This document shows, piece after piece, positions 13,953 to 49,978 of a DNA stretch of 64,000 bases. The position numbers were made by a program, and so were the translations under genes. Positions within the stretch are counted from its first letter, which is position 1; every line of letters starts with the position of its first letter. The stretch comes from Methanohalophilus levihalophilus (GTDB lineage Archaea; Halobacteriota; Methanosarcinia; Methanosarcinales; Methanosarcinaceae), in contig NZ_JAGGLK010000001.1 of the NCBI RefSeq assembly GCF_017874375.1, positions 434,001-498,000 on the forward strand, read 5' to 3'. The notes beneath the pieces are model-generated. The model had not been told where the DNA came from. It worked only from the letters and a program-made list of their open reading frames with translations, and made no database searches.

Positions 13953-15860
13953 TTAGCTTTTATCTAAAGCAACTGGAGGCTTCTCCGGTAATTCAAAAGT
14001 AAATTTAGTTCCCTTCCTCAATTCGCTTTCCACATGTATTTGTCCGCCGTGGAGTTCCACAAGCCTTTTAACAATTGCAAGTCCGAGGCCTGTCCCTCCA
14101 TATGCCCTTTTTGTGGAACTGTCTGTCTGGTAAAACCTGTCAAAAATGGAGTTAATTTTTTCCGGCTCAATCCCGATACCGGTATCTTCAACTGAAATCT
14201 GGATCATAGTACTGATTTTTTTTGCACGAATTGTAATTCGGCCGTTACTATGGGTGAATTTCACTGCATTACTAATCAGGTTGTTGAGGATTTGTATGCA
14301 TTTATTCAGATCAGCAGTAATGAGGGTAACTTCCGGATCAATTTCCATGTTTATGGATATGTCCTTGTTTTCTGCAAGTGGAGATGATAATTCAGTTGCA
14401 TGTGTCAGGAGATTTGGAACTAAAAACTCCTCATAGACCAGATCTATCTTTCCGGATTCAATTTTTGCAATATCGAGTATATCGTTGATGAGGAATAACA
14501 AATGTCTTCCATTTTCGATAACATTTACAACGTATTGTTTTTGTTTATCGTTAAGGTCTCCGAATGCTTCTTTTAAAAGGACATCAGAAAAACCAATTAT
14601 TGAGTTTAGTGGGGTCTTAAACTCGTGGCTCATATTAGCCAGGAATTCATCTTTTGCAAGACTGGCTTCCTCAGCTTTATTCTTTGCTTTGATAAGTTCC
14701 AGATCCGCCTTTTTTCTCTCGGTTATATCGGTTGTGTTACCAAAAGCCTGCAACTTTCCGTTTTTTCCAACAGAGATTGAGCCTTCGGATTGGACCCAGA
14801 TAATTTCTTTATTTGGTTTAATGAGCCGGTATTCAAGATTAATTTCCTGCCCGACATTTTCCATTGCATGTGTAAAAGTCTGGTAGACACGGGACAAATC
14901 ATCCGGATGCACGTAGCTGAACAATTTGTTCCAGTCATCACCGATTGTTTTCGGCTCGACTTCCAGAATTCGATCTGCTACCGGGGATATAAAAGTGTTT
15001 ACAAAATTTCCATCCTCGTTAAAATCTGTTTTCCAGACGATGCTCGGTATGGACGTTACTACCTTTTTGTAGCTTTGTTCACTTTCCCGGATTCTGTCTT
15101 CCATAACCCGCTTTTCGGAAATTTCTGTAGCCACTTCAAAGCGGACTTTTCGACCGTCATGCCAATCAATTACCCCATCGGTGCAACGATACCATTTTTT
15201 CTTCAATTCGTTGTAGGAGTTCCAAACGTAAGGTTTTCCTGAAGTATCATCAAAAATAATATCGTTAGTACAAAATGGGCAAGGTGATTTACGATTCTGT
15301 ATCACCGAATAACATTTTCGTCCTACTGCATTTCCGAAATTGTTTATCATGGCAGTGTTCATGAATAGAATTTCATAGGAGTCAGGATCTGAAACATAAA
15401 CGATATCATCCAAATCATTGAAAATAGCTGCAAGTTGCTCTATTTTTTGGTCAGGACAGCTAGTTGGCCCTTCGTGTTTTTGTACACTAACCTTCCATGA
15501 ACCAAAAAGCTCATCTTTGCTTTTGAATAAGGAAAAGCCAACCTGAGCAGGAATTGTTAAACCATCTTTCCTTAATATTTCCTATTTTGTGCATCTTGAA
15601 GGGGTGGATGAAGTTGAATATGAATTGCTTCTTTGCAACGTTTGGAGGCAAGTAGAATATTTTTCAGGAATCAGAATGGCAATCTCTTTGTTATATATTT
15701 CATCCTCAGAGTACTGGAAAACATCCTCAGCCTTTTTATTCCAGAAAATAACCTTATTTTTCGAATTGGTAAGAATAATTGCCTCATCCGAGGATTGAAC
15801 AAAAGAGTGAAAGATTTCCATATTGTCTGCTTGACAACATACATTTGCTTGTTTTTCCAT
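13953..15860 (-). CDS. PAS histidine kinase with an in-frame TAG (candidate pyrrolysine) codon
   Basis: Read through the TAG at 15582-15584, this is a 635-aa sensor kinase with the TAG at residue 93. Order: PAS1 (from MEIFHSFVQSSDEAI), interrupted by TAG and resuming EILRKDGLTIPAQVGFS; PAS2 with a cysteine motif (GRKCYSV, SPCPFC); PAS3 (SIVWKTDFNEDG to TTDITERKK); HisKA H-box MSHEFKTPLNSIIGF; then the ATPase domain with N-box NLISNAVKF, DTGIGIE and GTGLGLAIV. No transmembrane helix is seen. The TAG splits PAS1 with no frameshift, and the number of residues between IPEKY and RKDG is normal for a PAS domain. If TAG were a stop, the product would be 92 aa of half a PAS. ATG 15860 is chosen; a TTG 10 codons upstream is an alternative. 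Confidence 0.8.
15582..15584 (-). other. In-frame TAG codon in histidine kinase (recoded candidate)
   Basis: Codon order on the minus strand is TGC ACA AAA TAG GAA ATA TTA AGG. The frame is open on both sides for the whole kinase and both halves belong to one PAS domain. Confidence 0.75.
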
Positions 15861-16165
15861 TTTTGCACCGTTTTTAGCGAAGTAGTACAAATGTAGGTTA
15901 ATACAATGTAGGAATTCTTAGTATATGTATTCTTTTGAAAAATATATAAATGTTAAAATAACTTTTCCTGCCTGCCAATTAATTCAAGTTATTTTTTTTT
16001 ATTTACAGAGTTTGTTTCTTTTCGAAACCTTAAAGCAGCTTTATAATAGTCAGATATATCTAGCAGGAAGACACTTATTATCTGTACCTAAATTTATGGC
16101 TATATATTTTTAGTAACGTTTTGAAATTATTGTGACTTACTTATCGAATTAAATGTGAGCTAACC
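15861..16165. promoter_or_regulatory. Divergent intergenic region, kinase and lonB
   Basis: 305 AT-rich bases between the minus-strand kinase and lonB. On the minus strand a TATA-like CATTTATATATTT lies near 15940-15952, about 85 bases before the kinase ATG. No convincing gene is seen; short open frames here are hydrophobic AT-rich noise. On the plus strand lonB has no strong Shine-Dalgarno sequence (TGAGCTAACC precedes the ATG). Confidence 0.4.
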
Positions 16166-32665: not shown

Positions 32666-34261
32666 TTATTTGGAAATTGGAATTGTAAAGCTAAATGTGC
32701 TGCCTCTGCCAGGCTCACTTTGTACAGATATGTTTCCTCCATGCATTTCTATCAGATTTTTAACAAGGGTAAGGCCTAATCCCGTTCCTTCCGCTTTGGT
32801 GGAAGAAGGCACTCCTGCCTGCTCAAAGGGCTCAAAAATCCTTTTTTGTTCTTCTTCGGGGATTCCTATGCCATTATCTGAAACTGATATCCGGAGGAGA
32901 CTATTCAGGGCTCTTGCTCTTATTTCAATATATCCTCCAGTATTTGTGAATTTTACTGCATTGCTAAGGAGGTTGTATAACACCTGTCTGAGTTTTTTCT
33001 TATCTGCTAGAACAAATGGCAGGGAATTATCGAAGTTGATCTTGACATCAAGTTTTTTCTCAGTTGCAAGAGGATAAATCAGTTGGTTGGCCTCTGAGAA
33101 AACATCGTTAATATTGACAGGAATCAGGTCAAGTTTAAGCTTACCAGCACTTATTTTGGAAATATCCAGGAGATCATTGACCAGGGCAAGAAGGTGTTTT
33201 CCACTTCTTGAAATATTTTTAATATACTTATGTTGCTGATCATTAAGAGAACCAAACTTTTCATCATCAAGTATCTGGGAAAAACCGATTACTGAATTCA
33301 GAGGCGTGCGAAGCTCATGGCTCATTTCAGCAATAAACTCACTCTTCGCTTTATTTGCTGCATGTTCTCTGATTAATGTTTCAGAAAGGAGTTGTTCAGA
33401 TTCTTTTCTTTTTGTTATGTCTTCTACTACTCCTTTAATTTTGGATAAGGAACCGTTGTTATCGAACTCAACAACTTTTCCTTTGATGGAATGCCATTTT
33501 ATTTCACCATTTTCTAATGTTATCCTATAGTCGAGTTGGAATACGTCCTACTCTTTTTTAATACAGTTTTCAATGGCCGTTGTAAGAAATTCCCTGTCAT
33601 CTGGATGAATCTGATTTATGTAGAGCTCGTAAGGCATTGGGTTGGTTGAAAAGCGAATTTCATCTTTTATTCCCAACAACCTTTCCAGGGATTCATCGCA
33701 ACAAATTTCCCATTCCGGGAGTTTGAGTTCCCACCAGCAGAAGTTTCCAATTTTCATTGCATCCTGTATATGCAAATGGTAATCCATCTGATTCCTTTTG
33801 GGTGGGTTTAAATCTTCCAGATGATTTAAGAACGATTCCAACAAATTTACATTAAAAGAAGTTGGTAGATCAGGCTTTTTGCTGAAAAGCTGGACATATA
33901 GTTTTTCGCCACTTTGGAAAAACACGCTATAATCAAAAAACAATAGTAAATTGGTGGTATCGCCGGAAAGATATTCGCTGTCTTCATATTCTATTTTTGC
34001 AACAATACTGTGGCTTTCCGGAAAAACAGCTATTATTCCAGAGGCAAGATCTGGTAAAAAAGCATCAATTTCGCCATTATGTTCTAAAAATTTGTTTACT
34101 AGGGTATAAAATGAATTAACAGCACAAATTATGTTTTCTTCATTATCTTTCCCCGAAGTCAGGTTATTCTGTACAAATGCACTTTTACTAAATGAAGAAA
34201 GAAAGGATAGTGACTTTATATCCGGAAATATTCCTTTTTCTTTAGGGTTCCCCACCACCAT
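32666..34261 (-). CDS. PAS histidine kinase with an in-frame TAG (candidate pyrrolysine) codon
   Basis: Read through TAG at 33548-33550, this is a 531-aa kinase with the TAG at residue 238. An N-terminal GAF-like region (to about residue 165) is followed by a PAS_3-type domain ([16 protein letters not shown] to [13 protein letters not shown]), the HisKA H-box [15 protein letters not shown] and the ATPase domain ([26 protein letters not shown]). The TAG falls inside the PAS domain: [29 protein letters not shown]. Downstream there is no frameshift or other stop. If TAG terminated, the product would be a sensor without kinase, and the kinase half would have no start of its own at its natural beginning. 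TATA-like TAATATATT lies just upstream of 34300. Confidence 0.8.
33548..33550 (-). other. In-frame TAG codon in second histidine kinase (recoded candidate)
   Basis: On the minus strand the codons read ATT AAA AAA GAG TAG GAC GTA TTC CAA. Both sides are in the same frame and align to one PAS domain, with the TAG where such domains usually have a polar residue between helix and strand. Confidence 0.75.
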
Positions 34262-34487
34262 TTTAACCACGTTCACAGAACTTAGTTCGATTAATCTCAA
34301 ATATATTATGAAATCATGCCATTAATAATGTTTTTGTTATTTTTAGCAAGAGAAAATTTCTTTAGCATAATAGTTCATTCGGGAAATCTATGTATATTCT
34401 TCCGACATTTAATTTCTATATGCCAAGGAAAATGAATTTATCTATTTACATTTATGGTGGAAATTGATTTCGTAACAGGTGCAATTT

Positions 34488-48509: not shown

Positions 48510-48565
48510 TCATTATATTTTGCAACAAAGCAAATTATTAGTATTTTAATTTTTAATTATAGTTG

Positions 48566-49978
48566 ATGAGTTCAGCTTCTGGAAGAATTGGTAAGTTGCT
48601 TAAACTTAGTTTTTTGATTTTTATCTTACTATGGGGAAGTAGTACAACAAATGCTTTAGAAAACCCAACCGAACTTAATTCGAATAATATCGTTTTCTTG
48701 ATAGTTGATGGTTTGGGAGCATCCTACATTTACCCTGAATACCAACCAAGGGCTCTTGATGACAGCATCCTGCAAAAACCCAACGTCAAAAATCTTTCAA
48801 TTATCTCATCTGAAAGTATCAGATTTTTAGATGTAAGCACTATCGCACTTTCCGGAAATTCAGGACACAACTCATTGATAACCGGAAATCTGAATGCAGA
48901 CGAAAAAATGGTTGCCTACCCGAATACGACTATTTATGATGTACTTCACAACCGTGGATATGTTGCAGTTGCTATAATGGAAAAAGGAGATTCTCCAGAG
49001 ATAATTGCGGAACAGGACATTGTTCTTCATGATACTACCAATTCAATTAATGACGTTAGTATGGAAGTAAAAACAAATAATCCGGATATAGTTCATCTTT
49101 CAGGAATTCGGAACATTCTTGAAACACATGCTGAAATTGCTCCTGAAGCTGTGGAAAATGAAAAAGAAGGTAGCATCAGCAGATACTATGCATACAATGA
49201 AATTGTTTTTGATGGTGCAGAAGATGTCATTCTGGAAATGGAAAAATCTGAAGTTCCCTATATCCTTACACTAAATGCAGGAGCTATTGACAATGCCGGA
49301 CATTACAGGGGAAATGAAGGATATGTGCAAACTATTGAACATCTGGATAAAATGATCCTTCCTCTTTATGAGCTCTGCAGAGACAATGGTATTATTCTTG
49401 TCATTACTTCTGACCACGGAATTGCATTTCCTGATCCTGACAGCAGGGGCGGCGTGCAGTCCGGAGATTACTTCGAAACAGCTGAAGTAAAAAGAATTCC
49501 TTTAATCATCTATTCTCCTGATCTTAAACCCCAAATCATAGAATACCCCGCTGATCAGCAAGATATCGCTCCCACAATGCTTAGTATACTTGATATTCCT
49601 GAAAATCCCCACTTTTGTGAAGGAAAGCGTTTTCACATAAAGGAATATGCAACACTCGGAATAACTACGGACACAACCAGCAGTATACGTGTTTTGAATG
49701 AAGGAAGAACCCTGTATTCAAGCAATTTAGGATTTAATCATAATTTCAGAAAACTGGAACTGGATACAAGCTACAGGCTTGTAATATTTGACATTCAAGG
49801 CTAGGTTCTTGAGGAAACGGATTTTACCCTAAGCAAGGATACGAAAATGCACTTTTCGTTTGAAGATACTGCGCCGGATATCGTTGGGAAAGAAAGGATT
49901 GATCATTTTGGATATGCATTAATTGCATTAATTAATTTGACAGGACTAGTGTTGATTTTTAGAATACTGAAAAGTTAA
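48566..49978 (+). CDS. Secreted alkaline-phosphatase-superfamily protein with in-frame TAG and C-terminal membrane anchor
   Basis: Read through TAG at 49802-49804, this is 470 aa with the TAG at residue 413. Signal peptide (LSFLIFILLWGSSTTNA), then a phosphatase/sulfatase fold: metal-binding VFLIVDGLGA, nucleophile region STIALSGNSGHNS, AGAIDNAGHYRG and ITSDHGIAF. After the TAG 57 residues follow (VLEETDFTLSKDTKMHFSF onward) ending in a transmembrane helix (YALIALINLTGLVLIF) and RILKS, then TAA. This is a plausible C-terminal anchor for an external enzyme. Stopping at TAG would leave a secreted, unanchored enzyme. ATG 48566 (TTG 48563 is the alternative). Confidence 0.78.
49802..49804 (+). 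other. In-frame TAG codon in phosphatase-like gene (recoded candidate)
   Basis: The codons read GAC ATT CAA GGC TAG GTT CTT GAG GAA, after which the frame stays open for 57 codons up to TAA and encodes a membrane anchor. Confidence 0.75.

Follow-up and report, generated by a model that had tools for sequence, protein, structure and literature searches.

An in-frame TAG in a conserved, membrane-anchored protein of Methanohalophilus levihalophilus is probably a pyrrolysine codon

Introduction

Does an in-frame TAG end a secreted protein that gains its membrane anchor only by readthrough, or is it a sense codon of a protein that is always anchored? The question is raised by an open reading frame in a 64,000-nucleotide stretch of the genome of the salt-loving, methanogenic archaeon Methanohalophilus levihalophilus (the window; coordinates given without a contig refer to it). 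A sequence-only reading had taken the frame for a phosphatase already complete at the TAG, and had supposed that stop readthrough would convert a released enzyme into an anchored one.

Results

The TAG lies inside a domain

The frame starts with the ATG at 48566 (alternatively with the TTG at 48563), is interrupted by a TAG at residue 413 of 470, and continues for 57 sense codons, the resulting tail ending in a hydrophobic helix. The layout described earlier, with a TAG, 57 codons that include a transmembrane helix, and then a TAA, is confirmed from the sequence of the ORF. Its parts are the following.

48566-49978, plus strand: complete gene, with the TAG read as pyrrolysine; the predicted product is a type I membrane protein of 470 residues, its ectodomain resembling those of the alkaline phosphatase superfamily
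48566-48655, plus strand: predicted signal peptide, residues ~1-30 (modelled as a helix at 5-22; position of cleavage placed by eye)
48683-49600, plus strand: core with the Metalloenzyme/Sulfatase fold, ~residues 40-345, with Thr97 replaced by Gly and His297 by Val
49646-49855, plus strand: C-terminal beta-domain, split by the TAG (AlphaFold model)
49802-49804, plus strand: in-frame TAG (sequence) for residue 413, located in the turn that connects strands 402-408 and 414-421 (model)
49889-49972, plus strand: C-terminal transmembrane helix, residues 442-469, conserved throughout the family (alignments and model)
49976-49978, plus strand: true stop codon TAA (sequence)

The AlphaFold model of the full-length protein (pLDDT 89, pTM 0.82) has a C-terminal beta-domain with strands at residues 361-378, 381-385, 389-398, 402-408, 414-421, and 426-430. 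Residue 413 is in the turn of a beta-hairpin, and two strands follow the TAG. Hence, the phosphatase fold is still incomplete at the TAG, contrary to the earlier claim.

The tail is part of a conserved protein

Homologues of the protein are present in 57 of 60 related genomes. The nearest one, from Methanohalophilus sp. DJKA121 (G002), is 64% identical over residues 16-469 and spans the TAG site with no stop, having the codon AAA (Lys) in its place. An alignment of 30 homologues, window copy included, shows the tail and the helix in all of them and a TAG at the site only in the window copy; the column otherwise contains K, G, P, E, N, I, D, L, Q, A, or S and, judging from the alignment, is a variable turn. 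The same C-terminal helix is found in further loci of named genomes across Methanosarcinales and in Methanocellales. Because homology runs through the TAG and full-length homologues share the tail and its helix, the tail is certainly coding.

The tail is also under selection. Its pN/pS relative to DJKA121 is 0.55 (95% range 0.36-0.85), compared with 0.54 for the 48 codons preceding the TAG and 0.31 for the more tightly constrained core, these ratios being approximate because synonymous sites between the two genes are near saturation (dS ~1.2). Since the tail equals the 48 codons before it, selection is not relaxed past the TAG. The earlier expectations that the 57 residues would have homologues, and that they would be conserved at the amino-acid level where the TAG is another codon, are thus borne out by full-length copies in relatives that have tail and helix and a sense codon at the site.

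In several genomes the gene is apparently broken by frameshifts or stops. It is in two pieces in G005, in G011, and in M. profundi (L095), whereas G012 has a short piece with a TAG plus a TAA and G025 a short remnant. Judging from these copies, some lineages can apparently do without the gene.

One could then regard the window copy as a young pseudogene, in which the TAG would be a true stop and the tail would be decaying. The broken copies of these five genomes would fit this idea, as would the loss of catalytic residues in the clade of Methanohalophilus and Methanococcoides (see following). However, the tail keeps the reading frame and an intact helix, and TAG is no general stop in this genome (see following), which makes a pseudogene most improbable. 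We rejected it on the ground that constraint on the tail equals that on the domain preceding the TAG.

TAG is nearly absent as a stop codon

The genome encodes the machinery that charges pyrrolysine: it contains pylS (384.6 bits), adjoined by the gene for tRNA-Pyl with anticodon CUA, and two mtmB genes have a TAG at the known pyrrolysine site. A third gene of the mtmB family (C1:629393-630742, minus strand; L035) is free of this TAG, with Met in place of pyrrolysine; its product may use a substrate other than monomethylamine.

The use of stop codons was counted in 864 kb (the window, 400 kb from C1, 200 kb from C2, and 200 kb from C3). Gene-like ORFs of at least 150 aa (n=665) end with 322 TAA, 326 TGA, and only 17 TAG. 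At least 57 open codons follow 16% of the ORFs terminated by TAA or TGA; by itself, such an extension is not rare. Among the 17 ORFs ending with TAG, ten have open extensions of 57 to 473 codons, a significantly higher fraction than these 16% (p=8e-5). Another of the terminal TAGs (C2:155185) is a sense codon, the orthologue in G007 continuing past it. The remaining ones, which have short extensions, concern at most 6 of the 665 ORFs; a few of these TAGs may be genuine stops. Among other Methanohalophilus, no TAG stop is found among 30 ORFs of four loci, and G007 has one among 132, with a 622-codon extension. In Methanolobus loci, TAG ends ~21% of ORFs in a small sample.

Elsewhere in the genome, TAGs are spanned by conserved domains of PAS/GAF histidine kinases, of a CcmF-like protein, and of an integrase. 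Two of the kinases are in the window.

13953-15890, minus strand: sensor histidine kinase; in-frame TAG at 15582-15584, inside a PAS_9 match
32666-34300, minus strand: sensor histidine kinase; in-frame TAG at 33548-33550, inside a PAS_3 match, with relatives aligning through it

Annotation would call both of them split genes. A further PAS/GAF histidine kinase, of 911 codons, contains three in-frame TAGs (L042:352-3087, minus strand; C1:120352-123087).

The most telling gene is cfbD (TIGR03282, 555.7 bits for a cut-off of 268.4; C1:98444-99553, minus strand; L040:18444-19553; L186), whose codon 229 is an in-frame TAG. It encodes the catalytic subunit of Ni-sirohydrochlorin a,c-diamide reductive cyclase, which acts in the synthesis of F430. 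This copy is the only one detected in the genome, there is one strong match per genome in the 20 genomes searched, and the gene is 90% identical to the TAG-free one of DJKA121.

From these sequence data, TAG appears to be a sense codon throughout the genome. Because pylS and tRNA-Pyl are present and TAG terminators almost absent, the TAG at 49802-49804 is almost certainly one of many sense TAGs. Archaea in which every TAG is read as pyrrolysine have reportedly been described by Kivenson et al. (Science, 2025), and this "Pyl code" is said to combine genome-wide depletion of TAG stops with many sense TAGs, as found here.

The TAG is known from one assembly, and one may wonder whether it is an error of sequencing or assembly, or a strain polymorphism. 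An error is scarcely credible: two base differences separate the TAG from the AAA of DJKA121, and the genome contains many independent in-frame TAGs in coding sequence while almost lacking TAG stops.

The ectodomain has lost probable catalytic residues

Searches in Pfam (Metalloenzyme, 7.9e-12; Sulfatase, 2.5e-10) and among solved structures (Foldseek matches to sulfatases and YejM) place the ectodomain in the alkaline phosphatase superfamily, iPGM and LTA synthase being among the matches too. The protein shares with this superfamily the fold and the metal-site residues D48, D242, H246, D283, and H284. Residue 97, four positions before the invariant His101, occupies what we take to be the place of the nucleophilic Ser of iPGM, the roles of residues being assigned by analogy to that enzyme. 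In contrast with the superfamily, the window's clade has Gly instead of the nucleophile Thr97, and the window copy has Val instead of the ligand His297. This copy thus has neither the Ser/Thr nucleophile before His101 nor the full set of metal ligands.

The contrast between clades is clear in the alignment. All aligned relatives outside Methanohalophilus and Methanococcoides have Thr97 and His297, with the exception of one sister MAG with Ser97 and Cys297. All aligned copies of these two genera have Gly97, together with Val, Ala, or Ser at position 297; most of them have also lost His246, which the window copy retains. Hence, the ectodomain is likely catalytically degenerate in Methanohalophilus and Methanococcoides, which would form a clade of pseudoenzymes. 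Calling the window protein an enzyme is doubtful on these alignments; its role at the cell surface may be binding or structural.

A released form is not the default product

The proposal that the protein switches between a released and an anchored form divides into two parts. The TAG must indeed be read through, and the tail does provide the anchor. A conversion from a released to an anchored protein finds no support, as relatives encode the anchor in ordinary sense codons; for the same reason the anchored form is ancestral. Termination at residue 413 would leave a truncated beta-domain, cut in mid-hairpin after strand 402-408 and lacking strands 414-421 and 426-430, not a finished enzyme. A released active phosphatase is moreover unlikely because the clade has replaced both the nucleophile Thr97 and the metal ligand His297.

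Some truncated product could nonetheless form by termination at the UAG, because readthrough of an amber codon that lacks a special context reaches no more than 20-30% in Methanosarcina acetivorans (PMC2933860) and the release factor aRF1 (G000:C2:102759-103970; L157) retains the NIKS, YxCxxxF, and GGQ motifs. Inspection of the aRF1 alignment for a loss of UAG recognition showed these motifs to be intact, so they do not account for any loss of UAG termination that there may be. These observations also favour a functional dual output, in which partial decoding would yield both released and anchored forms, perhaps tuned by the supply of pyrrolysine; so does the dependence of UAG decoding on growth substrate in Acetohalobium arabaticum (PMC8211752). 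Yet no relative has a released form, and stop and extension are not conserved jointly, since, among the full-length homologues, that of this genome alone has a TAG at the site. In the 100 nt from the TAG there is no PYLIS-type stable RNA structure beyond what shuffled sequences give (z=+1.1), the TAG splits a hairpin in the predicted structure, and cfbD and other genes require TAG decoding anyway. A functional dual output is accordingly very unlikely, and the earlier suggestion that one gene gives secreted and anchored forms is unsupported, the anchor being the default in relatives. Also very unlikely is a partial decoding of the UAG governed by how much pyrrolysine is available (methylamines versus methanol), such that the ratio of truncated, released ectodomain to the anchored one would report or respond to the growth substrate.

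Discussion

The reading that we prefer is a near-neutral substitution by pyrrolysine in a constitutively anchored protein of an archaeon in which TAG encodes pyrrolysine, the product being full-length and anchored; we hold it to be very probable. In this reading, the gene is an ordinary representative of a family of exported Methanosarcinales proteins that combine a metalloenzyme fold with a small beta-domain and, at the C-terminus, a membrane anchor. One of its codons, in a beta-turn of variable sequence, would have drifted from sense to TAG, and its decoding by tRNA-Pyl(CUA) would give a usual product that is full-length and anchored, with pyrrolysine at position 413. We infer this insertion, the near-neutrality of the change, and a minor role for UAG termination from the observations above. 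The feature is real and mostly ordinary for the genus Methanohalophilus.

Similar cases exist among methanogens. The tRNA-His guanylyltransferase Thg1 of M. acetivorans likewise has a single amber codon, restricted to one lineage, in a widespread gene that does not encode a methyltransferase, and the codon is read as pyrrolysine. As reported in PMC2933860, Heinemann et al. (2009) found that this pyrrolysine is dispensable for activity and named neutral evolution. The protein is a different one, and UAG in M. acetivorans is both sense and stop (PMC2933860), whereas the genome studied here is almost devoid of TAG stops. Within the genus, the citrate synthase gene of Methanohalophilus mahii contains an amber codon for which pyrrolysine has been proposed (PMC3017947); the amber is probably read so, and the gene was called a pseudogene. 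That protein is a cytosolic metabolic enzyme, unlike the one described here, and its TAG is at another place. In M. portucalensis, pyrrolysine has been seen in MttB by mass spectrometry (PMC4928046).

The gene at 48566-49978 exemplifies mis-annotation in a genome where TAG encodes pyrrolysine: a standard gene caller would give a soluble secreted protein, and the anchor would be missed. The TAG of cfbD has a wider bearing, as it would link pyrrolysine to methanogenesis on any substrate, and it allows a test of whether methanogenesis as a whole, beyond the use of methylamines, depends on pyrrolysine.
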